From Owenia fusiformis (Eukaryota; Annelida; Polychaeta; Sabellida; Oweniidae): a stretch of 64,000 nucleotides of DNA. The notes under the pieces were generated by a model. It was not told the origin of the DNA and did no database searches. It worked only from the letters and a program-made list of their open reading frames with translations. Shown one piece after another: positions 8,663 through 63,745 of this stretch; within the stretch, counting starts at the first letter, position 1, and each line of letters starts with the position of its first letter. Made by a program: the position numbers and the translations under genes. The DNA lies in the NCBI GenBank assembly GCA_903813345.2, contig CAIIXF020000007.1, positions 37,534,759 to 37,598,758 of the forward strand, written 5' to 3'.

Positions 8663-9222
8663 TACAGGGTGGTGAAAAAAGGAAACCCGAATACCATTTT
8701 CCTCATATCTTTGTCATTTTGATGAATAACTCCCTGATATTTTACACTTTTGTACATCACTCAATTTGTTACCAGTCTACTTTGTTTCATGACCATCAGA
8801 TTGATAGTCACAATGTTACAGTTCTTTAAAGAACATGCCCAGTGGTCACTATTGTGTTGTGGGGAAACCTGTACTCATCGTCTAAAATGTCCCTACCTGT
8901 GGGGATATGGCAGAGATAGAGTATATGAGAATGACCTCAGGACAATTGCAAACCTCAAAAGTGAGATCCGTGTCATTCAGGCCATACATGCTGAGGAATG
9001 CATTCGGGTCATTGACAACTGTGCAGGTTTGCATACAGCGCGACAATGGCCAAACCTGAAGCATGTTATACAAAGTGCTGTAAAATTGTGACTATCAGAC
9101 TGATGGTCATGAAATATGGTAGGGTTGAATGATATACATATGTGTGAAATATCAAGGAGTTATTTCTTAAAGTGACAAAGATATAAGGAAAATGCAGGAT
9201 TTCCATTTTTGACCACCCTTTA
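8663..9222 (+). mobile_element. Mariner/Tc1-like element remnant with transposase fragment
   Basis: Ends 'ACAGGGTGGTGAAAAAAGGA' and '...TTTGACCACCCT' are inverted repeats of roughly 80 bp. The right copy reads back as 'agggtggtcaaaaatggaaa'. About 560 bp lie between. The plus strand retains a frame (about 8,930-9,090) resembling the C-terminal end of IS630/mariner-family transposases (helical, with an 'R-V-I-D-N-C' stretch). Most of the catalytic domain is missing, so it is dead. A second copy lies in the opposite orientation at 51,131-51,710 within gene A. Confidence 0.75.
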
Positions 9223-19527: not shown

Positions 19528-22500
19528 ATTGACACAGGTGTGCACCTACTTGTTGCCATATAATTGTACCTTCTTATTGCCACAGGACGGTACCAACTTA
19601 ATGCTACATGATTACCACAAGATTGTACCTTACCTTTAAGCTTGCATAGCAATAACGTTACAATAAAATGTAGTCACATGATTGTACAGGTTTGACACAA
19701 GAGTGTACCTACTTATTAATTGCCATAGAATTGTACCTTTTTATTGCCACAAGATTGTACCTACTTATTGCCACAGGTTTGTACCTACTTATTGCCACAG
19801 GTTTGTACCTACTTATTGCCAAAGGGTTGTACCTACTTACGGCCACATAATATTTACCTACTTCCTGCCACAGGATTGTACCTACTTACTGCCTCATGGC
19901 TGTACCTACTTACAGTCATAAGTGTACCTTCTAATTGTACCTACGTATAGCCACAGGGTTGTACCTACGTATAGCCACATGATTGTACCTACGTACAGCC
20001 ACAGGATTGTACCTACATATAGCCACAGGATTGTACCTACGTATAGCCACAGGATTGTACCTACTTATTGCCACAGGATTGTACCTACTTATTGCCACAG
20101 GATTGTACCTACGTATAGTCACAAGATTGTACCTACGTATAGCCACAGGATTGTACCTACGAATAGCCACAGGATTGTACCTACGTATAGTCACAGGATT
20201 GTACCTACGTATAGCCACAGGACTGTACCTACGTATAGCCACAGGATTGTACCTACGTATAGTCACAGCATTGTACCTACGTTTAGCCACAGGATTGTAC
20301 CTACGTATAGCCACAGGATTGTACCTACGTATAGCCACAGGATTGTACATACGTCTGGCCACAGGATTGTACCTACGTATAGCCACAGGATTGTACCTAC
20401 GTATAGCCACAGCATTGTACCTACGTATAGCCACAGGATTGTACCTACATATAGCCACAGGATTGTACCTACGTATAGCCACAGGATTGTACCTACGTAT
20501 AGCCACAGGATTGTACCTACCTTCGGCCACAGGATTGTACCTACGTATAGCCACAGGATTGCACCTACGTATAGCCACAGCATTGTACCTACGTATAGCC
20601 ACAGGATTGTACCTACGTATAGCCACAGGATTGTACCTACTTATTGCCACGGGATTGTACCTAAGTATAGCCACAGGACTGTACCTACGTATAGCCACAG
20701 GATTGTACCTACGTATAGTCACAGCATTATACCTACGTATAGCCACAGGATTGTACCTACGTATAGCCACAGGATTGTACCTACGTATAGTCACAGCATT
20801 GTACCTACGTATAGCCACAGGATTGTACCTACTTATTGCCACAGGATTGTACCTCTTTACTGCCACAGGATTGTACCTACGTATTGCCACAGGATTGTAT
20901 CTACTCACTGCCTCATGATTGTTCCTACTTACTGCCACAGGATTGTACCTACGTTCTACCACAGGTTTGTACCCTCTTATTGCTACAAAATTGTACCTAC
21001 TAACTGTCATAGGTCTGTACCTTCTTATTGCCACAATAGTGTACCTACTTACTCCCACAGGTTTGTACCTACTTACTGCCACAACATTGTATCTACTTAC
21101 TTACTTAATCACAGGATTGTACCTACGTATAGCCACAGGATTGTACCTACGAATAGCCACAGGATTGTACCTACGTATAGCCACAGGATTGTACCTACGT
21201 ATAGCCACAGGACTGTACCTACGTATAGCCACAGGATTGTACCTACGTATAGTCACAGCATTTGACCTACGTATAGCCACAGGATTGTACCTACGTATAG
21301 CCACAGGATTGTACCTACGTATAGCCACAGGATTGTACCTACGTCTGGCCACAGGATTGTACCTACGTATAGCCGCAGGATTGTACCTACGTATAGCCAC
21401 AGCATTGTACCTACATATAGCCACAGGATTGTACCTACGTATAGCCACAGGATTGTACCTACGTATAGCCACAGGATTGTACCTACGTCTGGCCACAGGA
21501 TTGTACCTACGTATAGCCACAGGATTGTACCTACGTATAGCCACAGGACTGTACCTACGTATAGCCACAGGATTGTACCTACGTATAGTCACAGCATTTG
21601 ACCCATGTATAGCCACAGGATTGTACCTACGTATAGCCACAGGATTGTACCTACGTATAGCCACAGGATTGTACCTACGTCTGGCCACAGGATTGTACCT
21701 ACGTATAGCCGCAGGATTGTACCTACGTATAGCCACAGCATTGTACCTACATATAGCCACAGGATTGTACCTACGAATAGCCACAGGATTGTACCTACGT
21801 ATAGCCACAGGATTGTACCTACGTATAGCCACAGGACTGTACCTACGTATAGCCACAGGATTGTACCTACGTATAGTCACAGCATTTGACCTACGTATAG
21901 CCACAGGATTGTACCTACGTATAGCCACAGGATTGTACCTACGTATAGCCACAGGATTGTACCTACGTCTGGCCACAGGATTGTACCTACGTATAGCCGC
22001 AGGATTGTACCTACGTATAGCCACAGCATTGTACCTACATATAGCCACAGGATTGTACCTACGTATAGCCACAGGATTGTACCTACGTATAGCCACAGGA
22101 TTGTACCTACGTCTGGCCACAGGATTGTACCTACGTATAGCCACAGGATTGTACCTACGTATAGCCACAGCATTGTACCTACGTATAGCCACAGGATTGT
22201 ACCTACGTATAGCCACAGGATTTTACCTACTTATTGCCACAGGATTGAACCTGCTTACTGCCACAGGATTGTACCTACGTATAGCCACAGGATTGTACCT
22301 ACTTATTGCCACAGGATTGTACCTACTTATTGCCATAGGATTGTACCTACGTATAGCCACAGGATTGTACCTTCGAATAGCCACAAGATTGTACCTACGT
22401 ATAGCCACAGGATTGTACCTACGTATAGCCAGAGGATTGTACCTACGTATAGCCACAGGATTGTACCTACTTACTGCCACAGGATTGTACCTACGTATAG

Positions 22501-23238
22501 CCACAGGATTGTACCTACGTCTGGCCACAGGATTGTACCTACGTATAGCCACAGGATTGTACCTACGTATAGCCACAGCATTGTACCTACGTATAGCCAC
22601 AGGATTGTACCTACGTATAGCCACAGGATTGTACCTACTTATTGCCACAGGATTGTACCTACTTACTGCCACAGGATTGTACCTACGTATAGCCACAGGA
22701 TTGTACCTACGTATAGCCACAGGATTGTACCTACGTATAGCCACAGGATTGTACCTACTCATTGCCACGGGATTGTACCTACGTATTGCCACAGGATTGT
22801 ATCTACTCACTGCCTCAGGATTGTTCCTACTTACTGCCACAGGATTATACCTACGTTCTACTACAGGTTTGTACCCTCTTATTGCTACAAAATTGTACCT
22901 ACTAACTGTCATAGGTCTGTACCTACTTACTGCCACAACATTGTATCTACTTACTGGCAGGGGATTGTTCCTACTTACTGCCACAGATTTGTACCTTCTT
23001 ATTGCTTCTTCTCCTTCTTATCACCTTCTTAGATTTTATCTACGTACTGTCTACTTACTGGTTTGTACCTTCTTATTGTCATAGGTTTGTACCTTCTTAT
23101 TGCCACAAGATTATACCTACTTGCTGCCGTAGGTTTGTACCTTCTAATTGCCACAAGATTGTACCTACTTATTGCCACAGGATTGTATCTACGTATTGCC
23201 ACAGGTTTGTACCTACTTACAACCACGGGATCGTACCA
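19528..23238 (+). repeat. 24-bp minisatellite, about 150 units
   Basis: The consensus unit is GTACCTACGTATAGCCACAG followed by GATT. The core from about 19,930 to 22,830 is highly uniform. Units are degenerate at both edges, with variants 'cttattgcc' and 'cttactgcc'. Because 24 is a multiple of three and the consensus lacks stops in most frames, open frames of up to ~720 codons appear on both strands, with periodic 8-residue peptides. I treat them as artefacts: there is no start context, splice signal or domain, and the edges decay as noncoding repeats do. A 40-bp stretch before the array is duplicated (19,474 and 19,636). Confidence 0.95.
21261..22170 (+). repeat. Higher-order repeat within the minisatellite (12- and 14-unit blocks)
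   Basis: A marker variant, 'agtcacagcatttgacc', occurs at 21,261, 21,597 and 21,885, which are spacings of 336 bp (14 units) and 288 bp (12 units). Between markers, the order of secondary variants (an 'ACGTCTGG' unit, an 'agccgcagg' unit, a 'catatag' unit) is the same. So blocks of units were duplicated together, as unequal exchange would produce. Confidence 0.8.
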
Positions 23239-49128: not shown

Positions 49129-49193
49129 TTATCTTAGTCCGGGATTATTCGGCATACTCACGTTACTTCTTCCGGAATTTCGGAGTCCGAACT
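49129..49193 (-). CDS. Gene A candidate terminal exon 18
   Basis: After the acceptor 'tctttttag' the phase-1 frame gives about 20 residues and a TAA at 49,131-49,129. Inside it a fair donor ('AAC|gtgagt', near 49,162) could instead splice on to exons further left. No AATAAA follows closely. So this may be the end of the gene or a penultimate short exon. Confidence 0.45.
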
Positions 49194-52100
49194 CTAAAAA
49201 GATAAAAAGCATGTATTAAATCGTTAACGTAAAATATGAGTTCCATGCGATATCCTGACAGCCCTAACTTGGCGTGATTGCACAAAACAACTCAACGTGG
49301 GGACACAGTGCATATTGTTGTTAATGGTGCATACCATACCTCTTCCCCCACAAGCCCCCGCGTCGCAAGTCCTTGTTATTATTGTAGGACCGTCGCAAAG
49401 GGCCCCACCGCCTGCAGGTTTCGGAGAATTACAGTCACGTGATCCCAACTCTGACCCGGAACCACAGGTCACAGAACATCTCGACCATTGTGTTACACTC
49501 CATCCACCATCAACTACAATTATCAAATTACATCGGAATTATTTTATTGTACTGGAATTATGTATCTCATAAAATATGATATTGGTATCGTGAAAAACAA
49601 TGCCTATAATACAATGTGAAGTACCGTAATACAAAAAACGATGTATTAATATGACCAGTTATTTTTTCTTCATTTAAACCGATTTCTCCGTTGATTTCCT
49701 CAATAATCGTACATGCAGTTTTCGCATAATTTCTAGTACGAGATTGTGATACCAGAGGCACATAGACACGGTTTCTTTGGATTTCTACACCTCCAAGTAT
49801 AATATAAATGCTTACCTTTCCGTTCACCATCGGGTGTATCGACCTCTTGGCTGTTTATTTGTCCACCTTTACTACCATCACCGTCTGATTCCTCGCTAGC
49901 TTTGCTGTTATCGTCATCAGTATCAGCACCACTTTGATCGGATTTGCCTTCTACACTTGCACTGTCTTTACTTTCAGTACTCTTACTACTTGCGCTTTTG
50001 CTACTTTTGCTACTACTACTGCTGCTGTCGTGCATATGACAATGTCGTTCGCCTACACCCCTTGTACAGTTGAAGTTACACCTAGCCAAATCCTTTTGGC
50101 AGAATATTTGGACTCCAGATGGACATCTCCAGTTGAATTCGGTGGCTAATTCACTCCAGCCATCTGGACACACTTCTGGCCGACAGACATATTGCCTTGG
50201 AATGTCTAAAATTATGGAGGGAACGTGTAATCGTGATTGTAGAGGAATCACATGAAATGATATTTGGGGTTGTAAGCCAAATTATGTTAAGTTAAAGTTC
50301 AAGATATCCAATTGTTATATGCATAAGTAGATGTAGGACTTATGGAGAAAACAAAGAAAACATGATATACTGAACTGGGATTTTATTTGACCTCCCGCAC
50401 AATTTGTTAGATGACAAGTTTAAGAATATGCTACAATACTAACCTAACGTTCGATCAATCGGATTGCTCGAAGAGCTCTTTAAAAAACAGAAAAGCACAA
50501 TGTACAACAAATTACATTAACATATCGTATCGCTGTAGAGAACTTAATACTCACTCCGACGACAGAATTTCCTTCTCTGGTCGGGAAGACTGTGGCTACC
50601 ATGGCTGCTGCTCTTACTACTCTTGCTTGCTTTACTATCCTTGCTAGCTTTACTACTCTTACTGGTTTTACTACTCTTGCTCGCTTCACCTCCATTGTTT
50701 TCACTTGATTTGCTTTCTTTGGCTTCCTTTGAGTCTTCTAGTGTCTTCCCGTTGCTCCTACGCCTCCTTCGTCCCTTTGACTCCTTACTCGTTTGTGATG
50801 ATTCAACACCCTTAGCCTCTTTGCTCTCCGCTGAATCCTCTTTACTCTCAGTTGAAGTGCCCTTACTTTCCGCTGATGTGCCTTTACTTCCCTCGCTCGT
50901 TGATTTTCCACCACTGCTTTTAGTACTTTTGCTTTCTTTGCTGGATTTTGAACTTTCACTGGACACCGAGTCATAACAGTCTTCGCTCTTCCATATTAGT
51001 TCTCTGTACCCACATGGTTCAATTTCATGACACTCAGTTGTGTCATTACAATCAAGCCAAACATCGTCAACAATATCAGCTAAAAATAGTCAGACTTGTA
51101 CATACAAATACAGTGACATATAAAGTGGTGTATGGGTGGTCAAAAAAATGGAAACCCTGCATTTTCCTAATATCTTTGTCATTTTAAGAATCTACTCCTT
51201 AATATTTCACACATATGTACATCATTCAATTTCCTACCACCCTTCCAAATTTCATGACCATCAGACTGATAGTCACAATTTTACAGCACTTTGATATAAC
51301 ATGCTTTAATTTTGGCCATCATCACGCTGTAATCAAACCTGCACAGTTGTCAATGGGCCGAATGCATTCCTCAGCAGGTATGGCCTGAATGATACGGATG
51401 ATCTCACTTTTGAGGTTTGTGATTGTCCTGAGGTAATTCGCATACACTTTTTCCTTGCCATATCCCTACAGGTAGAGACATTTTGGATGACAAGTGCAGG
51501 TGGCCCGAGAGTGCAATAGTGGCCACTAGGACACGTTCTGTAAAGTGCCGTAACATTGTTACTATCAATCTGATGGTCATGAAATAAAGTAGGCTGGTAG
51601 AAAATTGAATGATGTACAAATGTGCAAAATAACAGGGAGTTATTTCTTAAAATGACAAATTTATGAGGGAAATGGTGTACGGGTTTCCATTTTTTTTGAC
51701 CACCCTGTATATGTAGAATTAATATTTTAATACATTAATGTAACTGCAGCATGTAGGGAAGATGGCAACAAATTATACCAGCCTTACATGTTTAAGACAT
51801 AAACCAATTCTCTGTAAGGTTACACATATGGTCAAGGAGGCAAGGTGGACAAGAATAAAATTTCCGAGTATGCAAAGAGCAGTTACATTAATGTCTTAGG
51901 CATATGTTTTGTTAGAGAAACAAAAAGGTATCCTTTTTTTATTAATCATCTTTATTATATTCCATAAAATACAGATGTACAAACTTAAACAATTGCCAAA
52001 ATCTAGTGACATTGACGGCAATTTTGAGTGAAATCCAATGGAATGTTATTAAATTTTTACATAATAAGTTATTTTTATGTCATGTTATTGTTAAAATAGA

Positions 52101-55100
52101 TGAAAGAAAAAAGTCAATAAAGGTATCCTAACAACTTACGCGTGCATACAGCTTCATGTCCTGTCCAATGGCCATCGTGTAAGCATTTTCTGGTAACACT
52201 ACCACTCAGGGTTGCAAATGGACCACATCCGAAGTGAACGTGAGCTCCGAAATGTTGATGCAATATCGTCATGTGTCCACCATCAGGTTTGTATAGCACA
52301 GGACAAATAGGATGCTCTATAATAGTAAGATAAGAGAGTAAAGGAAGCAAGAACTTGATTTAACACACAAACTCATTACCATTTACTATAAAGAGATAAG
52401 TTTACCAAAGAGCAGACCAGTAAAGGGAAAAGCCTTGCAAAAAACTATTTGGAAAGGATGTGCTCATTACTTGCATCAATGCAGTAGGTATGGAAGCCCG
52501 TCCATATTCCACTATAGAGGCATTCTCTTTGCGCACTGCCCTGTAGCATGTATCCTTCATTGCAACTGAACTTAGCAATGCAACCAGGGGCGGTACAGCC
52601 GTCATCAAGTCGTTGACCATTATCAGGTATGACAAGCTCGTGGCATGGTTTTGCTGCGAAAGGGAAAATAGAAATGAATATATACAGGGTGGGCCAAAAA
52701 AATGCCACTTTTTTTTCAAGACACTATTACTTTTTTATTTTGCAACCTACATACCCCAAATTTTGCAGTTATATAGTGCCAAGGGTTCTTAGTAAGAATA
52801 TAATGTAACAAGTCCTTCAACTGGGATTGTATTTGATCTAAAAGAGGAGTTCAATTGGTCCGCAACCCTATTTGATGATAGATTTTAGTTTTAGTCGCCT
52901 TGCTGATTTGGCAGTATCAATGAAATGTTAGCTATATTTTTTCAACGTGTCTTAATTGCCAACTTTAGTTGAGCAATTTTTTAGATTGGGTGCCTTCATA
53001 CCATCTCCTGGAGACCTCCCCATACCCTATACTCACTTGGGTTTGCATCAGGGCTATTAGCTTGGCGGTCATCAGGGCGTATCAGTTAAGAACATTTTGC
53101 AAATCATGCTTATTTCTCATGGAACGCCACATGTTTAAGTGAGACGCTGGTGACATATTTTATTCTAGTAAAAGTGTATTCATGATCCATGGCTAGATAA
53201 CAACCTCAAGTTTCATTTGATTTTGTATCAAAAATTAAAAAAAGTTATAGCATTTTGAAAAAAGTGGCGTTTTTTGGCCCACCCTGTAGTAGTAGGCGTT
53301 CTACGAATACAAGAAATCGAATGATCCTTTCAATGTTGTAACATTTGAATAGCAAAACCCAGAAATCCATTGTCGCGGTGATTTGGTATTAGCCTGAAAA
53401 CGTTACTGTTTATAAAGAGCAACACTTGTCTAGTTTTAGAGGAATATAAAAAATATTCTGGAAGTGGGAGATTCTCAACATTTCATTCTCTTATTTTAAT
53501 CACTAATGCACATAAATATATGGTGACGTCATTATTGGTTTGGCTGCTCGGCTGTAAGTTTGTGTAGGAAAACGGCTTTTGCTTACGACATTGATGAGTG
53601 TTGCAAAAGTCTGTTTTTGTTCGTGGTTTTATACAGTTGAACTCTTTGTCATCCGGGCCGTAGCACACCTTCTCATAGAGTTGTATCCCTCCGTCACATG
53701 TTCGAGAGCAGACGCCTATTTGTTTCCATTCCACAGTAGTTCCATTCTCTATAAATACATTTGCTGTTTATAATCAATAAGGAAATAAATAGCATCGACC
53801 AAAAACAAAAGATGGCGTTTCTATTACAATTAATGAGGATATATAGTTATGGATATCTGATACAATAAAACAGAAATGACAAATTGCACATATCACACTT
53901 TGCTTGAATGTAATTCGAAAAATATAGAAAGTTTCCATACCTTGTTCGCATCGATTGCCATAGAATCCCGAAGGACAACTGCATGAATAAGTGTGAGGTC
54001 CGTTTGCATCTTCCGTACATACACCACCATTTCTACATGGATTCGGCCAACAGTTTACAACTTCATCTGTTTAAAAAGATCAATCACTATATTCTGTCCC
54101 AATGGTGAATGGTACATTTACATTTATTTATATTTTATAGACTATTTTGAAATTCGTTCGTATCGTTACTGTTGACAACTTTTTGACGAGCCCATTATTG
54201 ATAGCAACATACTACACATTATTGTCAAAAAAAAACAGTTTCTTATTTCAAAATTTATGTTTACTTTAAGTTTAATTATGTTTGCAAAATTCATGAACTG
54301 TAGATTAACAAACATGCTTCACATTAATGTCAAATACCAAAAGTTAAATTTTAGTCAAATTATATTTTCAAATGTTTAAACCGTAGGTCTAGTTTACGTA
54401 CCCATTTTCTTGTACTTGGTTCTTTTAATCAATACAGGTACTTGGTGAACGTGGTTGTAACGATACTCGTAAAGTATCTTATCTTTACAAGAATGGAAGC
54501 CATGGTAGTGTCTGTATTTGTACATGTCGTAGTGATTAAAGTCGGGTCTGAAATAGCCATAGTCGTCATAGGGATGACGTATTTTGTTGTTCTTTTCCTT
54601 AGAATGGTGGCTGGATCCCTTAGATTCCTTTGACTTTTTCCTTGCTTTGGACTTTCCGCTCTTTGCATTTTTGGCGCTTCTTTTTCCAATATTACGTAGC
54701 GTTTTTTTGCTGCTCTTACTTCCGCTTTCCTTGTCAACTCTGCTATTACTGCCATCTATTGATCCACTCGAACTATGGCTAGTGTGTTTCGGGTGCCAGT
54801 AGTAATGTTCAGAATGATGATGAGAATCCTTTCTTGGAATATCATTCCCGTATTTTATCCTTTCATCATCATTGTAAAAGTATCTTACGTCGTGGTTATT
54901 CTGGCCTCTACCATCTTCATGTCCTGCATAGTAACCATTCTCACCATTTCTCGTGTCTCCATAATAGTCACCATAATTTCCTTTATGCTCGTGATCTTCC
55001 TGATGAAAATAATGGTCTAAGTGCCCATATTTTTCATATATATCGTAGTCATAGTGATATCTAGGCAATCTGTATGATTTTTCGTAATTGGGGTCATTGT

Positions 55101-58100
55101 GGTGTTCTTCATGAGAGGAATGCTCGCTATGGTGGTGGTGATGTGAACTAGAACTATGCGAGTGTTTAGAGTGCCCAGGGTTACTTTTATGGCTGTGATC
55201 AGAATGTACATCGTGACTATCATGTAGTGCGAATGTCTCGGCTTTTGAACTTCCCTTGTGACCACTCTCAGAAGCACTTCCATGTCCACTGCCCGATTTG
55301 TGGTGGTGACCACCGTGTGAATGGGAGCTATGGTGACTGTGCACCCACGGTTCATTCCATTTAACATAATCATTGTAGTATCCGAAATTCCAATCGTGCT
55401 CCTTATTATTTTCTGGGTCTACTTTACCACTAGCTTCAGGAGTCCTATCGTCACCGTCACTCTTTGACTCAGAATTTTGATGTGATTTCGATCCATGATG
55501 ATGATGCTGTGATTTTGCGTGAATGCCATGGTTCCAATGGTCGTACTCATCAAAATACGAACTGTATCTTTTCTCTGTGTTTTCAGCATTATGCAAACGT
55601 GTATTGTAATCGTTACCGTTTTGGTCAGGAAATCTGTCAAATCGCCCACCATCACATCTGCCATCCCTACAATAGTCTGGTCTAAACTCAGAGTGATGCC
55701 CTTCGTGTCCATCAAACTTATCACGAACATTGTCATAATTCAGTGTAATGTGAAAGTCCGAATAATAGGATGTAGGAAGAACAAATTTTCCATGTCCGCC
55801 ATCATTTGTACCAAGAATTCCACCAGAACGGACGCAGACATCCGGGTATGTCATCTTCTGATCTGCTGGACACCATCCATAATTACCCTCATAAGCAAAG
55901 CTGTAACTTTCAGGAGATATTTGGAAACAGGGAGAATCGGATGTCGGATAAAGAGTTACAGTTTTTACCGTTTCAATGTCAACCTTCACAATGAATAAGT
56001 GTTCGTGTTGACATTCCATATATGGAAAGACAATTTGAAATGAATCAATGTACATTGCGTCATTAAGGTCATCCGGGTTATCAATCCATCTGTAGTGCAT
56101 CAACCAATCAGGATCTTTGGGCAAACGGAATAAAATGGTCTCTCCTTTAAGTAACTTGTTTAGGTTTATATAACTATCGATACTAGTATATAGACCATTA
56201 GGAGTTGTAGGGATATACGCTCTGTACACAGTTTCTTCTTCTTCCCTAATTACCATTGATATCAGTCGATCAATCTCATCCATAGTAAAGTGGTAATTTC
56301 TGCATATATCTGGTCTGGCCCCTCCGTTTTTAAACTCAATTGCATTACAAAGATATACTGCAGCTCTTTGCATTCTCGCGGAATCCAAGGCTATTAGCAC
56401 AGTCACTGGATAGAGGTTTATTTGTGTTGCTGATGTACCTATAAATGAGCCATAGACATCCGCTAAGTGCGATCTCACAATTCTTGACATAACCTCCATC
56501 TTTCTTTCTTGGAAATCTAAAATGGTCGTTAAAGCTTGGTCAAGTTCTGTTATATTTGCGAGCATGTCAGGGCAGTCTGTTTCAGCCCAACGTCTCAACC
56601 CAGATTTGCTTGCTGTTATACTTTCAGCTATCACTTGCCCAGTAGAGAAAAGCTCACACATCTTACTGGCAGTGTCTTTCAGTTTAACGGTCACTGCTGC
56701 GATCTGTGCACCAACAACCTTGAAAGCAAATCATCATCTATATTAGAAAACGGCAACTCCACAGATAGAGTAGCAAATTCCAACGAACACTATAACATAT
56801 ATGAATCTGTATTTGCACAAATAATAAAGACAATATATTTTAGATCTAATAAAGTATCATGTAACCATACTTCAAATGACCATACTTCAAATATCTAAGT
56901 AACAGTGAATTCCTGCTTGGCAGCAATTTGGAATTTTCTGAGACATCTTAGAAAAACAATACAATAGTTGTGATCTGACCTATATTTCCTTCAATTTGAG
57001 TATAATATAGCCATATTTTGAAGGAATCAGAAAATGATTGGGAAATCCAGCATAAGGCAGACATTTTGAATTTCACGAGGCTCAAATCAGAAAAACAATA
57101 CAATATTTGCATTCTAATCTAAATTACCTTTCATTTGGGTATAATAATTTAAAAGCTATATTTCAGAAAGATCTCAAATTAACACAATTTTCTGTTGGCA
57201 GCCATTTTGAATTTTCTGAAGAACAAATCAGAAAATCAATACCATTATTGTGATCTACCCTAAAGTTTCTTCAATTTGGGTATAATAAAGCTATACTTTG
57301 AAAAGATCAGAAAATTATTTCGAAATCCCACAAAAGGCGGCCATTTTGAATTTTATAAGGCTAAGATAAAAAAAAACTATGCAACATTTGCAATTTTCTC
57401 AAACTTGTCTTTCATTTTAGCATTATAAAGCTAAACGAGTTTTCTTTCGGACAGACGGACGGACGGAGGGCTTAACTATATCCCTATCGAACTTCGTTCG
57501 TTGGTATAATAATGAAATCTGGATTCTTATCACAACATTATACTCTACCCTACCTCGTTTGATTTTATCCCATACGACTGTTTAATATATCGACTGCTTC
57601 TCGAACGTTTTAAATTTTTCAAATAATTGATATGTCCTAATATAAGTCACTGAATCTGAAAAGTTGATCAATACAAGACACAGGCAATGAAAACTGTTCA
57701 ACAGCACAAATTGCCGGAAAATAAGCTGATGTATGCGGCAAGAATTCATGGCTTTAGAGCAAAAAATACGATCATGTTTTATACAAGTGTGCAATGGGAC
57801 ATTTGTGAATGTAAATGGACCTAATTTGAATTCCCAGATGAGAAAATAACAGTAAGGACATACATATGGTAATGTGATGTAAACAGATTTATCATAAATA
57901 GTATAAGTTAGTTTAAATATTGAGCCGATTTACAAGTAAGTCTGAAATAGTAACATTAATTAGTAGAGTAAAAGTCACAGGCAGTTAGTAGAATTCAGTT
58001 GACCTCGGAGATAGAGTTAGAGAGTGAGGGTATAATGAGAACCTGAGCTGAGATTAGTTCAATATAGGTATAATATATGCCAAATCATAATTTTCATACC

Positions 58101-61100
58101 AAATTAATACATATAATCCAAGTTGAAGGACCCGTTACTTATGTTATTATCTAGAGCCCTGGTACTATATAACTGCAAAATTTGGTGTATGTAGGTTTGA
58201 AAATAAAAAAGTTATAGTGTCTTGAAAAAAGTGGCGTTTTTGGCCCCACTTATATAAAAAAGAATTACTCGTCTTCATCATTAACAAGAACATGTTAAGT
58301 ATGTCGTTTAAGGACCTACTTACCTTGGGTTCGTAGGTTCCATATTTGTCAACAAAGTCTTGTTTCAGATTGTCAACGATTGAAGAATTTAGATCAGGAA
58401 ATGGACTGTAGGGTGGATGGTGCTTCCAGAGAATATCAGCGTATGAAATGGTGTTATCGGCTGCAGTGTATGCTTCGACTAAGGCTTTCATCTCATCGAT
58501 TTGATCTTTGTTGTCATTAAGTAGGGTTGCGAGGTCGCCAACCTCGTTTATAAACGGCGAGACAGCACTTCCAAGTTTTGAAATTTTGTCTTTATTTTTG
58601 TTGGATTGTTCCCTGATTCTCTTTATCGTCCGATCGATGTCTTTGGTACAAGGGTCTGAGGCTGGAAGTCCACCAACGGGCACAGGGAAATCTGGAAGTC
58701 CCAGTCGAGGTAAGCAATCCGCCTTCAATATTAAATCAAAAGCTGTAAGGCCAGCTGTACCTGCCATTGCAAATCCAGTCAGTGTACCTTGAACTGCAGT
58801 TAAAAGTGTTTGTGTGCTAGTTTTTAGTCCATCTATACTATTTCGTAAGGTATCTAATGCAGTGCTCAATCGGTTCTTGTCTTTTTCATTTATAGATCTC
58901 TCATAGTCTGCCAAGGTTCGAAAATATGTGCTCAGACGAGTAAATTCCCACGTAGTCTGATTCATTTCAATATTCATGCCTCTATAAACATCAAACAACT
59001 GTTGATGCCTGAGGTAACGCTGCTTCAACTCTGACATGTACGCTTGGAGTCCAATTGATTGAAAATCAGATGCGGTGACGTATCTTATATCTGCCTGAGT
59101 TTTTTGTTTCGCAACACGAAACATTGCTACTACCGCCAATAGATCTCTGGTGTGGCAAAACTTTATCTCTCCGTCGTTACATTTTATGGATGCAGTGTCA
59201 AGAAGGTCTTTGTACGTGTTGTCAAATAATTCAATGTCCCTACCAGAATCAGCCAAAAGCGCTCTCTGTATTTCACTAAATATCTCATGAACACCACCAG
59301 GGTGCGCATCGAATGCTTAAATAACCAAAATATGTGGTAATGTATCATAACAGTCCTTTCCATAAGTTTGGTAACTGGAGGCTTGAAATCGTCAAACATA
59401 AACAGATTTTGATAAATGTTCCAAAAGGGACCTATGGTTGCCAAACCCATGGAGGGAAGTGTATACATGGATGTATTTAGACAAATATTTAACAACGACA
59501 ACAACTTTACTGGAAAATATGTATCAAAGATTAAAATCACAAACCTGAACATGGGAAATCGTTACAAGGAAACACATTCTCTGAAATGCCAACGCAATCC
59601 ATTCCTCCATGCTGGGGATACGGATTGTTGCAAACTCTTGCACGTGTCCTCGTTCCCCCGCCACAACTCTCAGAACAGCTACTTGGGTTTTCCCATTTAC
59701 CCCAGTGCCCATGCACTAAAAATGACAAAATGGCAGCGTTTTACAATAATATTACAATATTTCAATAAAAACATAGCGATGATTACAGATTTGAATGTGC
59801 AATTGGTAATTGCTTTTGTATTTGGGGATTAATAGGCGTCGTTTTTACAAGTAAGATCACAGTTGAGGGTTGTTATCTTCAATGCTTAATTTTTGCTCTG
59901 TTTTGTAGCATTTCCAATTGGCCCCTGTGCATGCATAAGAAATATTTCCAAGAAAAACATAAAATTGGGGAAGGATTCGAATAACATGTAATTTTGATAT
60001 AGATTGGGGTTATAAAATTCCCGAGAAAAATCAAACTAAGACGCTAATGTCAGACCTCCAACCGGCGCCGGGCTGATGTGTATTTTGTTCAAAACTGAAT
60101 ACAATTTGGCATAGGACGGGCTTAATTCTCTGAACCATTTTTCAATATTCATATAGTACATTACCTGGACATGGGTCGGAACCACATCCTTCTTCATACA
60201 TTATGTTTGGTCCAGGACAATTTAGAAATTTGTTTCGACCTTCATATGTACACTTGCGAGTGAACGTATATACACCCCCTCCGCAAGTGACGGGACATTC
60301 GCTTTTGCGCCATTCTGTCCAATAACCTGTAAACCACAACATACAGCTGTAAACCCCCCTAAATAAGTTTGACATCCGAAAGATATATTTTTGATTACTC
60401 ATCAACGACGACGTATTTATGCCGTATGAGAGGAATAAATGAGAAAAAATGAATAACTTGCAAAATATTCATAAGGAGTAGATTTTTTTGCAAAATAGTT
60501 TTTGGTCATTTCATCTAAATGCAAAAGTGATAGCAAACATCATCATAGTGTGTGTTTTTCAGAAGTTTCTTGTTTTGCAAATGCCATTTTGTAAAAATAA
60601 ACATGCCAATCTCCGATTTTAAAATTTTGTTTTCAAGGTTATGAGAAAACTAGAGGTCTGGATATTGTAAATTGTATCATTGACATGCATTTTAATACGA
60701 ATCATTATGTCAAGGTTAGCAAATACCATATATCATTCAAACATGTTCAATAATATTTACTGACATGCAACTGAGTATATAATCTGGGCGGGGAGTAAAT
60801 ATTTATAATATTTATAGCTACTTACTGCAGTAAATCTCCACATTGTCTACTTGAACGCTTTGAGATCCACCTCCTTCAAACACCAGGTCAAACGCCCCAT
60901 AGGGTAACTTAACCGTCTGTAGTTTCTCCTCGACGACTGAGGAAAGCAAAGTTGATCAGCCAATGCAAATAAAAACTTCTATTTATAGAAAACCGGTTGT
61001 TATCTTAAGTAGAGGGTGTACCTGACATGTCTATAGGTGCTTTACCCTCATTGTGGAGGTACGGGGATGGGAGGGGGTAATTGACCTGAATTTTTCCAAC

Positions 61101-63745
61101 TAGCTCAAGGCATTGTTAAGCTGTTAGTCTTGATATAAACAAAAAACAACCGAATGAGTTCAATCGTTTACAATGCTTTTTTGCACAGGCTTTCAAAAGG
61201 TACCATTGATTTAAATATCCAAGAAGGTGTCAAATTTTGAGGGGGTTGGATTTCCTCTTTGTCCGTGTCAGGAATAGTCACATTGTCTTCATTAGGCTGT
61301 GGGGAAAAGGTAAGTACAAGCATGTTGCAATTGCAATGATTATCAAGCTAATTTGAATTTTGCCTAAACTAGGAACCACGCATGGCTATCATTACGGGTT
61401 CTTACTTGGATGATCGTTTGTCCATAGTATAGTTTTGGTTTGGTTTCCATCCCTGCTGTATAGTTTAAGACCATTTGGTTCTGGCGATTTAAAATGGAAA
61501 TTCACATAAAGTATTTTATTTGATTGGACGTTGTGTATTGTTGGTAAGACGAACGAATTAGACGAAACACTCGTTGGTTTATACGCCATATGGCAATCTA
61601 AAATAAATTAAAAACATGTGATTGTTTCTATGAAAAAAAGGTTTGATATTCATAAATGTTTCTCCATTTTAATGTCGCTTATAAATGATATAAAGGGTGT
61701 CCCGAAAGTATGCCCCCCCCCTAGGCAGACATACACCAATGTCCCCATAGTATGTATCATATATCATTTTAAAGTTTGTCCAAAGTTACATTGATTTGCC
61801 AAGTATTATGGTTCAACTCACAAACGGGAAAAAGTTACACACATTTCAAAATGTAGTGTTTTACCAAAATTAAAGTTTTGTTTTACACAAAATTAATAGT
61901 CGCTGTGTCTCCCTTGGCCATGTTAACAGCAGCAATTCTTTCCAGATATGACCTTAAATACACTGCAAATAGGGGTATGGCATTTAATAATTATCATAAA
62001 ACCTTTTTAAGGCATTTTAGAAGAGTTTCCTTGGTGTATCTGGCCTTACCGACCTCTTTTTACAACTCAATATCCATCCTCTCTTTAACGATAGCACCCA
62101 TATTTTTGGTCACATTCAGTTAAGCGGTGTTTCAATGATACTGAATTTAACTTACATTTTGGCCCAACACTAAGTTTTGAAATGCCTGCAACTTGTTCCC
62201 ATTCGTAAGTTGAACGATGATACTTGGCAAATCAATGTAACTTTTGATGAGCTTTAAAATGATATATGACACATACTATGGGATCATTGCTGTATGTCTG
62301 CCTAGGGGGGGGGGGCATACTTTCGGGACACCCTGTATATAATAGTATGCATGTACCAGCGAATAGTTCAAAATTATTTTGCCTGTAGAATGGAATTTTC
62401 AATATGTTATGAATAAATTTAAATATAAACATATATGAACATATTATAAACGAAATGAAAAAGTGAAGTGCATATTCGTGTTTTATACAATGACGTACCA
62501 GTGACATTATTAATTGTATTACATTCCCTTCTCCAATCTGAACTCACTTCATAGTCGCCACAAATACCATCGTCGAATGTACAGACAACTACTCCAGGAC
62601 AATACCCTTAAAATATAAATGTTCTCCTATGGTCCGTCGGTAAAACAAGCTATGAACAAAATGTTCTCCAAATGTACACTCATTCCATATGTTAGGCAAT
62701 ATGTAGTTTACAATGCAATTTTGGCAAAAATAAACTCTTTACAAGCGATATTTTTTTTCGATTTTCAGTTTTTTAAGATTACCTCTGTGGTATGGTTGAA
62801 ACAATGAGTAATGTATCGGGTGTTCGTCATCGTTATGCCCCGTGTACCAATGGTGATGATGGTGACCACTGGAACTGCTGCCTGATGACGAGCCTGACTG
62901 TTTCCCTTTTGAGCTATTTCCTACACACATGTAACGTACTGTGTACACATGTAATTGTCAAATCAACATTTTGTGAACGTCAGCAATTTGGATTTTTAGG
63001 GCCAATTGAAGGTTGACCCAACTACTTTTTTATATACTTTATTCTGTGATCATAATTATCATTGTTTATTTCATTTAAAATGTTTTCTTACCTTTGCTAT
63101 CTGATTTTGCAGATGTTCCTTTGCTGACTGGAAATTGAAATTCATATTGAAACGTTTGATGAAACGGTTGGTGGGTATTGTTCTTGGAATAACTATGACA
63201 AATATGAATGTTATACACGTTTATAAGTACAATATTTCTTTAGAAGGTCGCATCATACAAATATAATACGTTTGAAGATGGATATTTACACGGGGAATAT
63301 AAATTACTAATTTGTGACCATTTATTTCGACACTTTCGACACGGTGTCAAACGTGTTCTATGTCAAGTATTCAGTGTATCAAGACAAAATGTTGACAATA
63401 CATTTAATTAAGCCCTTCTTAACAAAAGCATCTTAATTTGTGTGCCAAGAAGTTATATCTCGATCTTCACGTAAGTTTAAACGTTCTCGATGTGAGCATA
63501 TTGTAAAAGATCATCTTAATTACTATTTGTTTGTATCGATAAAGCTTGAAACGATTAAATGAGTAAACACAAGGAACACGCACGTCTCGAACTCGCAACC
63601 TCGTGGTTACGGCGACCAATAGCCTAGCCTGAAGGTATTAAGAAATATTACCTTTTGACTGAGTTCCGCCATCGCTATCTTTCTTCGCTAAACAGAGCAC
63701 GAGAAAGAAGGGTATTAAAAACAAAACACCTCTGGCAAACTCCAT
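49129..63745 (-). CDS. Large secreted mosaic protein: MAM, TSP1, novel module, His/Ser-rich, EGF, CCP (18 exons)
   Basis: Exons 63,745-63,652, 63,127-63,092, 62,920-62,783, 62,606-62,499, 61,597-61,406, 60,936-60,826, 60,326-60,165, 59,715-59,545, 59,315-58,324, 56,718-54,402, 54,066-53,941, 53,748-53,587, 52,653-52,471, 52,316-52,140, 51,079-50,555, 50,205-49,816, 49,513-49,340 and 49,193-49,129 join in one frame of about 2,040 codons. All have GT donors and AG acceptors, and all internal introns are phase 1 except the phase-0 intron between exons 9 and 10. The product has a signal peptide and no later membrane anchor that I see, so it is probably secreted. TSP1, CCP, EGF and MAM domains mediate binding in extracellular matrices. 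The His-rich and phospho-acceptor-rich Ser segments recall mineral- or metal-binding and adhesive proteins; that role is inferred. I do not recognise the gene as a whole. Confidence 0.85.
49340..49513 (-). CDS. Gene A exon 17: thrombospondin type 1 repeat
   Basis: 174 nt, phase 1-1. [17 protein letters not shown] and four further Cys: a textbook TSP1. The last recognisable domain of the protein. Confidence 0.93.
49816..50205 (-). CDS. Gene A exon 16: Cys-rich patch plus Ser-rich/acidic segment
   Basis: 390 nt, phase 1-1. The first ~60 residues hold seven Cys and two Trp in a pattern I cannot assign. It probably folds with the last Cys of exon 15. Then come a Ser run, S-S-K repeats and an acidic stretch (D-T-D-D-D, E-E-S-D-G-D). 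It ends E-R-K at a strong 'gtaagc' donor. Confidence 0.82.
50555..51079 (-). CDS. Gene A exon 15: Cys-containing lead and Ser/Lys-rich S-x-E segment
   Basis: 525 nt, phase 1-1. A 35-residue lead with four Cys is followed by ~125 residues dominated by Ser, Lys, Glu and Gly in S-S-K and S-K-E-S-K patterns, with one R-R-R-R-R cluster. I count at least ten S-x-E motifs, the consensus of the secretory-pathway kinase Fam20C in animals, so heavy phosphorylation is plausible. The complementary strand shows a long Leu-rich frame, which is only its shadow. The exon ends K-F-C-R-R, leading into the Cys-rich part of exon 16. Confidence 0.85.
51131..51710 (-). mobile_element. Mariner/Tc1-like remnant in gene A intron 14
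   Basis: Termini 'GGGTGGTCAAAAAAATGGAA' and 'TTTTTTTGACCACCCTGTAT' bound a 580-bp copy of the 8,663-9,222 element, here in the opposite orientation. The transposase remnant is on the minus strand and broken by stops. Confidence 0.8.
52140..52316 (-). CDS. Gene A exon 14: CCP/sushi domain
   Basis: 177 nt, phase 1-1. Four Cys with V-H-F-G-C-G, then R-K-C, then G-H-W-T-G, then V-C. A standard CCP of about 58 residues, with an unusually His-rich middle loop. Confidence 0.9.
52471..52653 (-). CDS. Gene A exon 13: CCP/sushi domain
   Basis: 183 nt, phase 1-1. P-C, then F-S-C-N-E-G-Y, then R-E-C, then G-x-W-T-G, then Y-C: the four Cys and Trp of a complement control protein module. Two extra Cys in the N-terminal loop (G-C-T-A-P-G-C) could form an added disulfide. 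Confidence 0.9.
52683..53288. mobile_element. Second mariner-type family in gene A intron 12
   Basis: 'TACAGGGTGGGCCAAAAAAA' and 'TTTTTTGGCCCACCCTGTA' form terminal inverted repeats; 'TGCCACTTTTTT' and 'AAAAAAGTGGCG' extend them. The ~600-bp interior has no transposase frame. A solo end is at 58,119-58,252. Confidence 0.8.
53587..53748 (-). CDS. Gene A exon 12: divergent TSP1 repeat
   Basis: 162 nt, phase 1-1. [14 protein letters not shown] and four later Cys fit TSP1. Only one Trp is kept and the Arg ladder is weak (L-Y-E-K-V-C). One sequon (N-G-T) precedes it. Confidence 0.85.
53941..54066 (-). CDS. Gene A exon 11: EGF-like domain
   Basis: 126 nt, phase 1-1, a complete EGF domain: C[11 protein letters not shown], then Y-x-C-x-C-P-x-G-F-Y-G-x-x-C, with all six Cys. 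There is no D-x-N/E calcium-binding signature at the start, so a non-calcium EGF is likely. Confidence 0.93.
54402..56718 (-). CDS. Gene A exon 10: rest of novel module plus giant His/Ser/Tyr-rich tail
   Basis: 2,317 nt, 772 residues, phase 0 in and phase 1 out. Residues ~1-130 continue the helical module of exon 9. Residues ~180-335 look beta-rich and folded, with several Cys and Trp. From ~335 on the composition changes to His, Ser, Asp, Gly, Tyr and Lys, with runs of three to five His, S-H-x-H patterns and Tyr clusters. A Lys/Arg/Ser stretch with a G-K-R dibasic site (residue ~679) is followed by a Tyr/His-rich end. The tail is likely disordered and metal-binding. A single exon this large among small shuffled domain exons is unusual and may reflect local repeat expansion. 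Confidence 0.85.
56738..57505 (+). repeat. Dispersed repeat with ~140-bp subunits, copy 2 (gene A intron 9)
   Basis: Begins 'tagaaaacggcaactccaca', like the copy at 14,757. It carries about four subunits with 'tcagaaaaacaatacaat', 'cttcaatttgagtataat' and 'gccattttgaattttc'. It ends with 'GGACAGACGGACGGACGGAG' and 'cgaacttcgttcg'. The start abuts the exon 10 acceptor by only ~20 bp. Confidence 0.7.
58119..58252 (-). mobile_element. Solo end of the 52,683 mariner-type family
   Basis: 'agttgaaggacccgttac', 'actatataactgcaaaattt' and 'gaaaaaagtggcgttttt' are the mirror of 52,690-52,825. The opposite half is missing. It lies ~70 bp below the exon 9 donor. Confidence 0.7.
58324..59315 (-). CDS. 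Gene A exon 9: long helical module with one hydrophobic segment (unrecognised)
   Basis: 992 nt, 331 residues, entering phase 1 and leaving phase 0 at 'AAG|gtaagt'. The sequence looks almost wholly alpha-helical, with heptad-like Leu/Ile spacing and charged residues. In the middle (residues ~171-197 of the exon) is a run of about 27 mostly small or hydrophobic residues. It is followed by a Pro/Gly-rich loop bracketed by two Cys, then another long amphipathic helix. That layout (helix bundle around a hydrophobic hairpin) is shared in outline by alpha-helical pore-forming proteins, but also by ordinary coiled-coil proteins. I claim no homology. It forms one module with the start of exon 10. Confidence 0.8.
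59351..59463. mobile_element. Short MITE of the 'TACACTCCCC' family (gene A intron 8)
   Basis: 'CCTTTCCATAAGTTTGGTAAC' and 'GGTTGCCAAACCCATGGAGGGAAGTG' are the mirrored ends, only ~110 bp apart. The element stops about 35 bp from the exon 9 acceptor and so may overlap its branch-point region. Confidence 0.7.
59545..59715 (-). CDS. Gene A exon 8: thrombospondin type 1 repeat
   Basis: 171 nt, phase 1-1. H-W-G-K-W, then S-C-S-E-S-C-G-G-G, then a R-T-R-A-R-V-C strand and three more Cys. A canonical TSP1 with a good Arg ladder, directly following the TSP1 of exon 7. Confidence 0.92.
60053..60120 (+). mobile_element. Core fragment of the palindromic 10,925 MITE
   Basis: 'CAACCGGCGCCGGGCTGATG' and 'tattttgttcaaaactgaatacaattt' match the centre of 10,960-11,020. 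Termini are not preserved. Confidence 0.45.
60165..60326 (-). CDS. Gene A exon 7: thrombospondin type 1 repeat
   Basis: 162 nt, phase 1-1, a whole TSP1 domain of 54 residues: W-x-x-W, C-P-V-T-C-G-G-G, aromatic/Arg-Lys strand, and six Cys in the usual spacing. The Arg-ladder is partly conserved. TSP1 repeats bind glycosaminoglycans and matrix proteins and are often C-mannosylated on the first Trp. Confidence 0.9.
60826..60936 (-). CDS. Gene A exon 6: MAM-like domain, end
   Basis: 111 nt, phase 1-1. It ends with F-D-L-V-F-E-G-G-G, then V-D-N-V-E-I-Y-C. This matches the MAM terminal pattern (F-E-G, then I-D-D-I..C). Direct joining of exons 5 and 6 keeps phase and rebuilds the expected domain length (about 135 residues from exon 4). 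Confidence 0.82.
61406..61597 (-). CDS. Gene A exon 5: MAM-like domain, middle
   Basis: 192 nt, phase 1-1. It encodes alternating hydrophobic strands ([15 protein letters not shown]) as in the MAM jelly-roll core, followed by T-I-L-W. One N-Q-T sequon. The donor 'CCAA|gtaaga' is strong. The next intron contains a mariner-like element (61,691-62,338) upstream and a possible unused exon at 61,204-61,296 downstream. Confidence 0.8.
61691..62338 (-). mobile_element. Third mariner-type family in gene A intron 4
   Basis: 'AGGGTGTCCCGAAAGTATGC' and 'GCATACTTTCGGGACACCCT' are perfect mirrored ends. The match continues for ~130 bp ('tcatatatcattttaaag' and 'ctttaaaatgatatatga'). A transposase relic may be present on the minus strand but is not intact. 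Confidence 0.85.
62499..62606 (-). CDS. Gene A exon 4: MAM-like domain, first part
   Basis: 108 nt, phase 1-1. After a Y-C-P-G lead it has C-T-F-D-D-G-I-C-G, the hallmark start of MAM domains (C-x-F-E-x-G-x-C-x). W-R-R and a sequon (N-V-T) follow. The domain continues in exons 5 and 6. MAM domains mediate protein adhesion on extracellular proteins. Confidence 0.8.
62783..62920 (-). CDS. Gene A exon 3: Ser-rich and poly-His linker
   Basis: 138 nt, phase 1-1. It encodes a Gly/Ser/Lys run, then five consecutive His and a Trp, then an Asp/His/Tyr-rich stretch. This is the first of the low-complexity segments that separate the globular domains. Composition points to a flexible, possibly metal-binding linker; no domain is recognised. 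Confidence 0.75.
63092..63127 (-). CDS. Gene A exon 2: 36-nt microexon (Ser/Lys linker)
   Basis: Twelve codons between the acceptor 'tttcaatttccag' and the donor 'AAAG|gtaaga', encoding [12 protein letters not shown]. The open frame extends upstream to another AG at 63,193, but starting there breaks phase with exon 1. The acceptor at 63,128 restores it and has the better pyrimidine tract. Confidence 0.7.
63556..63634 (-). mobile_element. tRNA(Leu)-like SINE fragment, copy 2 (gene A intron 1)
   Basis: Matches 45,558-45,635 at about 80%, including 'GTCTCGAACTCGCAACCTCG' read on the plus strand. Only the B-box half is present, ending about 15 bp from the exon 1 donor. Confidence 0.7.
63652..63745 (-). 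CDS. Gene A exon 1: start codon and signal peptide
   Basis: 94 nt from ATG to the donor 'AAAAG|gtaata'. It encodes a classic signal peptide: Met, one Arg at position 5, then about 14 hydrophobic residues ending C-L-A, with predicted cleavage after Ala20. A Lys/Ser/Asp-rich start of the mature chain follows. The start context has a purine at -3 and G at +4. A SINE fragment lies about 15 bp into the following intron. Confidence 0.85.

Follow-up and report, generated by a model that had tools for sequence, protein, structure and literature searches.

The window analysed here, a 64,000-nucleotide stretch of the Owenia fusiformis genome, contains a minus-strand gene that would encode a secreted extracellular-matrix scaffold, with the tube or the cuticle as its likeliest place. 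We hold this reading at somewhat below even odds (roughly 0.45). Marine invertebrates often have lineage-restricted secreted mosaics, and taken alone this gene is therefore only moderately surprising: a secreted mosaic of shuffled domains is already known, and what is new is a sister gene in the same genome and a long unmatched module. A protein of this domain order was not recognised in the literature searched. An annelid source is in line with four genomic matches to the erythrocruorin linker C-terminal family, named for annelids (E 5e-7 to 0.0023); one of the four contains a stop, and another attains the cut-off only when scored with its neighbours. Hemerythrin, a further annelid marker, had no match, nor did COX1.

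A mosaic gene of 18 exons

The gene opens with an ATG at 63745 and closes with a TAA whose last base is 49129 (Table 1). Its coordinates and its 18 in-frame exons, as given in an initial annotation made from the letters of the window, were recovered exactly when the chain was rebuilt by script: the CDS counts 6165 nt and 2054 residues (~230 kDa), it holds no internal stop, and all introns of the 18-exon model are GT-AG. Fifteen of the 17 introns are in phase 1 and the other two in phase 0; mostly phase-1 introns are the expectation for shuffled extracellular domains. From its N terminus, the product comprises a predicted signal peptide, a His/Ser segment, a MAM-like domain, two TSP1 domains and a module of ~663 residues. 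There follow a His/Ser/Tyr stretch, an EGF domain, a TSP1, two CCPs, two successive pairs of a Cys patch and a Ser-rich stretch, and a last TSP1.

The openness of the long exons goes well beyond what chance would give. Exon 9 (330 codons), the core of exon 10 (332), its His/Ser/Tyr stretch (424), exon 15 (174) and exon 16 (129) are all stop-free in frame, and 2000 Markov resamples of each of these five stretches held 8-25 stops on average, with not one resample free of stops. For exon 9 the GTAAGT donor after 58324, in phase 0, was preferred because it keeps the junction with exon 10 in frame and because the sister gene on C6 (see below) has a phase-0 intron at the corresponding position. Counterparts of exons 1, 2, 3, 5, 15, 17 and 18 were not seen in the sister gene; these exons are predicted from splice signals and phase, exon 17 also from its TSP1 match.

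One further candidate exon, 51537-51339, was dropped because it broke the phase; a counterpart of it was not seen between the second CCP and the Cys patch of the sister. By eye, its surroundings resemble 8738-9091. The translations of 51333-51734, in the intron before exon 15, and of 8738-9091 are similar by the same inspection (NLKSEI..IQAI.AEECIR.IDNCAGL), and the two are probably dispersed copies of a mobile element. A short GCCACTTTTTTCAAGACACTATA-like element, also noticed by eye, is common to two introns, where it lies in opposite orientations (58240-58200 and 52730-52690).

Table 1. Exons and subregions of the gene model, with positions in the window.
Feature	Position	Strand	Evidence
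Exon 1, start codon and signal peptide	63652..63745	-	ATG at 63745, hydrophobic N terminus, donor GTAATA
Exon 2, Ser/His-rich N-terminal segment	62783..62920	-	Phase 1-1; 46 aa, S 23.9%, H 19.6%
Exon 3, MAM-like first part	62499..62606	-	Phase 1-1; MAM resemblance by eye, outside hhalign columns
Exon 4, MAM-like second part	61406..61597	-	Phase 1-1; second half in hhalign match; sister counterpart
Exon 5, MAM-like third part	61204..61286	-	Phase 1-0; hhalign match partly gapped; weak acceptor, least certain boundaries
Exon 6, MAM-like last part	60826..60916	-	Phase 0-1; in hhalign match; sister counterpart
Exon 7, TSP1	60165..60326	-	Pfam TSP_1, exons 7-8 jointly 55.5 bits, cut-off 21.6
Exon 8, TSP1	59545..59715	-	Best TSP_1 stretch of the exon 7-8 piece
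Exon 9, N-terminal half of module	58324..59315	-	Sister alignment; helical by low-confidence prediction; donor GTAAGT
Exon 10 first part, C-terminal half of module	55723..56718	-	Sister exon: 41% over query residues 65-329, E 1.8e-63
Exon 10 middle, 424-residue His/Ser/Tyr stretch	54451..55722	-	Composition; 0 stops; absent from sister exon
Exon 10 end, conserved end of module exon	54402..54450	-	VPVLIKR vs sister VPFVIKR
Exon 11, EGF	53941..54066	-	Pfam EGF 22.9 bits, cut-off 21.5
Exon 12, TSP1	53587..53763	-	Pfam TSP_1 24.2 bits, cut-off 21.6
Exon 13, CCP/sushi	52471..52653	-	Pfam Sushi, exons 13-14 jointly 31.1 bits, cut-off 20.7
Exon 14, CCP/sushi	52140..52316	-	Second Sushi stretch in the exon 13-14 piece
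Exon 15, Cys patch and Ser/Lys stretch (50975-50589)	50555..51079	-	Composition; RRRRR at residues 1774-1778
Exon 16, Cys patch and Ser/Asp-rich stretch (50029-49844)	49816..50205	-	VC..CPDGWS in both genes by eye
Exon 17, C-terminal TSP1	49340..49513	-	Pfam TSP_1 41.9 bits, cut-off 21.6; not seen in sister
Exon 18, last residues and stop codon	49129..49193	-	Splice signals and phase

Recognised domains and a divergent MAM-like region

The initial annotation had described a secreted mosaic protein, and both parts of this description found support. In a hydropathy scan the highest 19-residue value of the whole protein (2.07) falls at the N terminus, where a signal peptide is predicted. The first TSP1 pair, the EGF domain, the TSP1 that follows it and the C-terminal TSP1 score above their Pfam cut-offs, as do the two CCPs by their joint Sushi score.

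The MAM domain of the same annotation held in part. In the Pfam listings a PF00629 match to this region was absent at E<=0.1 and at E<=10, a setting at which the HMMER filters still discard most weak matches. The region had no match among PDB sequences by phmmer, and it was not among the at least 140 PF00629 matches listed genome-wide, from 150 scored candidates out of 276. Six near-full-length domains among those matches were made into a reference MAM profile. Comparison of the region with this profile by hhalign gave 92.8% (E 3.8e-7); the 73 aligned columns lie in the second half of the region, and the controls gave 0.1% (TSP1 pair) and 0.2% (module). The domain is thus best called divergent MAM-like: its second half is supported by profile comparison while lying below Pfam detection, and its first half was read by eye. 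Large clusters of recognised MAM domains, separate from this gene, lie at C6:23.63-23.68 Mb, C7:30.21-30.23 Mb and C11:27.36-27.38 Mb.

A sister gene that keeps the order of parts

Single-protein searches of the same genome, with both module halves and then with the sister module, located a sister gene at C6:8.47 Mb. Two full members of the family and one partial third copy were found in the genome, a count that may miss weak matches; the search run to E<=10 gave, in addition, two matches no better than chance (E 0.66 and 4.4). As read from frames and alignment, the sister gene carries MAM-like exons, two TSP1 domains, the module, an EGF domain, a TSP1, two CCPs and a Cys patch, in this order. 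Its identity to the window copy is 35% in the module, 49% in the TSP1 pair, 39% from the EGF domain to the Cys patch and 29% in the MAM-like part. The module is spread over seven exon matches in the sister and over two exons in the window copy. MAFFT set the sister Cys patch mostly against exon 15; by eye, the shared VC..CPDGWS marks it as the counterpart of exon 16.

Since the sister gene keeps the same order, there is strong evidence that, between the MAM-like region and exon 16 inclusive, the window model represents a single gene, and the single-gene model of the initial annotation comes out strengthened. The sister frame is closed by a stop codon immediately behind the Cys patch, and exons 17 and 18 are for this reason unconfirmed by it; the last TSP1 was not seen in the sister gene.

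The two copies differ in their biased stretches. In the sister module exon, the module is directly joined to the VPFVIKR end, without the 424-residue His/Ser/Tyr stretch, and a counterpart of exon 15 was not seen between the second CCP and the Cys patch of the sister, nor was a Ser-rich stretch. This suggests that the biased stretches lie outside the shared core of the two genes; they would have been gained in the window copy or lost in the sister, a comparison of two genes being compatible with either.

The partial third copy lies at C6:28.68 Mb, and its main shared exon is 97% identical to that of the sister. In the segment C6:28671000-28690800, part of the sister's 3' half recurs almost identically, and a fragment of one of the module exons lies inverted beside it; the segment may have arisen by recent partial duplication or may reflect an error of assembly. 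Long open frames beside it look, by eye, like those of a LINE-type retroelement and of a transporter.

A long module unmatched in the searched libraries

The module spans residues 347-1009, that is, exon 9 and the first part of exon 10. It has no match above curated cut-off in Pfam or NCBIfam, and nothing convincing was found in PHROGs or among PDB sequences, the latter searched also with a two-member profile. Its best sub-threshold Pfam match, to FDX-ACB (E 0.0012, 19.7 bits, cut-off 31.1), was made by the window copy and was not repeated by the sister module; a GldL match (E 0.0042) was made by the sister module only. Other best E values were 0.038, for the PDB binder 7xad, and 0.09 in PHROGs, and no NCBIfam family was matched by both sister modules.

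AlphaFold models computed without alignment gave a mean pLDDT of 42.1 for exon 9, in a form ~18 residues too long and helix-rich at low confidence, and of 32.7 for the whole of exon 10 including the His/Ser/Tyr stretch; we treat both models as uninformative. Relatives of the module were also sought in bacterial, archaeal and viral contigs and in the genome itself, a scope that has no bearing on other animals. Scans of bacterial and archaeal contigs yielded 80 candidate stretches and scans of viral contigs 96 and 95, none of which was confirmed.

The ~660-residue unknown module of the initial annotation thus stayed unmatched in Pfam, NCBIfam, PHROGs and PDB sequences. From these comparisons it appears to be an undescribed module, conserved between two genes and, in one block, strongly so. 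This makes it worth studying for its structure and its function.

Composition and motifs of the biased stretches

The His/Ser/Tyr stretch (424 residues) contains 14.9% H, 13.4% S and 8.5% Y; the Ser/Lys stretch of exon 15 (129 residues) contains 34.9% S and 18.6% K, and the Ser/Asp-rich stretch of exon 16 (62 residues) 35.5% S and 14.5% D. The His/Ser/Tyr and Ser/Lys stretches look disordered and were seen only in this copy.

S-x-E is the target motif of FAM20C. In eight motif-by-stretch tests, taken without correction, an excess of S-x-E appeared in two: the Ser/Lys stretch has 10 sites against 5.16 in shuffles (20 of 2000 shuffles reach 10), and the second Ser stretch, in exon 16, has a weak excess of 4 against 1.72 expected (80 of 2000). 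Exon 15 contains 18- and 21-base tandem repeats, and its excess arises in part because the 21-base repeats carry the motif. No excess of S-x-E was found in the His/Ser/Tyr stretch (3 against 3.61 expected; 1464 of 2000 shuffles), the N-terminal segment has no such site, and CK2-type sites were in excess in none of the four stretches. Twelve matches to FAM20C-type kinase exons were found in the genome, on C9, C3 and C11. The RRRRR at residues 1774-1778, which we take to be a furin-like site, may allow cleavage within the Ser/Lys stretch.

Proposed role and alternatives

The initial annotation had proposed a matrix, mineralisation or adhesive protein. A matrix role can fairly be inferred from the domain content; a mineralisation or adhesive role stays putative, what speaks for it being compositional only, namely the S-x-E excess, set beside the FAM20C-type exons in the genome. 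In the scaffold that we favour, the folded modules would bind cells, glycans or other matrix proteins, and the ~663-residue module would be the specific functional unit of the family. The extra stretches would give this copy a polyampholyte character, allowing it to condense or cross-link in a secreted matrix. Cross-links could form through phosphoserine and Ca2+, through His-metal bonds or through Tyr, partly as proposed for tubeworm cement proteins. The tube of Owenia collaris is described as having a sediment-grain texture and secreted micro-ridges (PMC4375521).

Passages on sabellariid cement describe phosphoserine-rich proteins, His-rich basic proteins and FAM20C kinases (PMC12621633). 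What recalls the present gene in these cement proteins (Sa-1 to Sa-3B, Pc-3 to Pc-5), made by tube-building annelids, is their Ser-rich phosphorylated and their His-rich basic sequence (PMC12621633). Sa-1 is given there as a protein of 231 aa with no conserved domain (PMC12621633), whereas here the biased stretches sit inside a multidomain protein of 2054 residues; the likeness would be one of composition, not of descent.

A bolder form of the scaffold reading is that the module stands at the start of a new domain family of annelids and that this copy, by gaining the biased stretches, became a self-condensing phosphorylated protein of tube or cement; we find this distinctly unlikely. If true, folded binding modules and coacervating linkers would be combined in one chain, with an unmodified sister kept for comparison. 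Should the tube or cement reading hold, the sisters would be a natural experiment, a folded core that they share being accompanied by charged, His-rich and Ser-rich stretches in one copy only, and would offer a direct test of how a matrix protein gains adhesive chemistry.

Some members of the thrombospondin superfamily carry TSP1 and EGF domains, as this gene does, and the superfamily is defined by its C-terminal region. The thrombospondin C-terminal domain was not among the Pfam matches at E<=0.1 in the seven pieces scanned (exon 18 lying outside them). Members of this superfamily are metazoan extracellular-matrix proteins (PMC6526912), a class to which the product of the gene would also belong.

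Against the scaffold reading, the domain content suits proteins of immunity or development almost equally well. A secreted recognition protein of the body fluid, acting in innate immunity, clotting or encapsulation, would use its domains to bind microbes or damaged surfaces and its His- and Lys-rich stretches to bind polyanions. The combination of CCP, TSP1 and EGF is typical of complement-like proteins, and Pfam finds the three together here; however, protease, lectin and MACPF-type domains are absent from the Pfam matches at E<=0.1. Immune recognition families also commonly show large expansion, whereas just two full members were found in this genome, weak matches being possibly missed. We consider a recognition protein somewhat unlikely.

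It is unlikely that the gene encodes a matricellular or reproductive protein, a component of basement membrane, axon guidance or egg coat in which the module would be a receptor-binding domain. Mixtures of TSP1, EGF and MAM are common in such proteins, and the strong conservation of one module block between the sisters would suit this role, but long His/Ser/Tyr and Ser/Lys stretches, as present here, are unusual in them.

Two adjacent genes could also have been joined in the model, the first ending with the module and the His/Ser/Tyr exon and the second starting at the EGF exon. Within a few bases beyond the exon 10 donor there is indeed an in-frame TAA (frame ending at 54394), at which an unspliced reading would end; the intron between exons 10 and 11 is a predicted one, and several outer exons have no sister counterpart seen. 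Yet the gap between exons 10 and 11 measures 335 bases, the donor is GT, the acceptor is AG and the phases agree, and the sister gene has the same neighbours in the same order. Such a split appears very unlikely.

It is extremely improbable that an animal gene acquired the helical module as a pore-forming domain of toxin type: the module is helix-rich at low confidence and has one NCBIfam match below threshold, to alpha-xenorhabdolysin subunit A (E 0.1-0.15), but this match, at 11.4-11.8 bits against a cut-off of 125, was made by one of the two sister modules, relatives were encoded in 0 of the 80 bacterial or archaeal candidate stretches, and no such protein is among the six PDB profile-search matches.

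Elsewhere in the window, 19922-23084 is a tandem array of ~3 kb with VPTYSHRI-like repeats, open in several frames on both strands; GC is 0.45 in 20001-22000, inside the array. It is probably a minisatellite rather than a gene.
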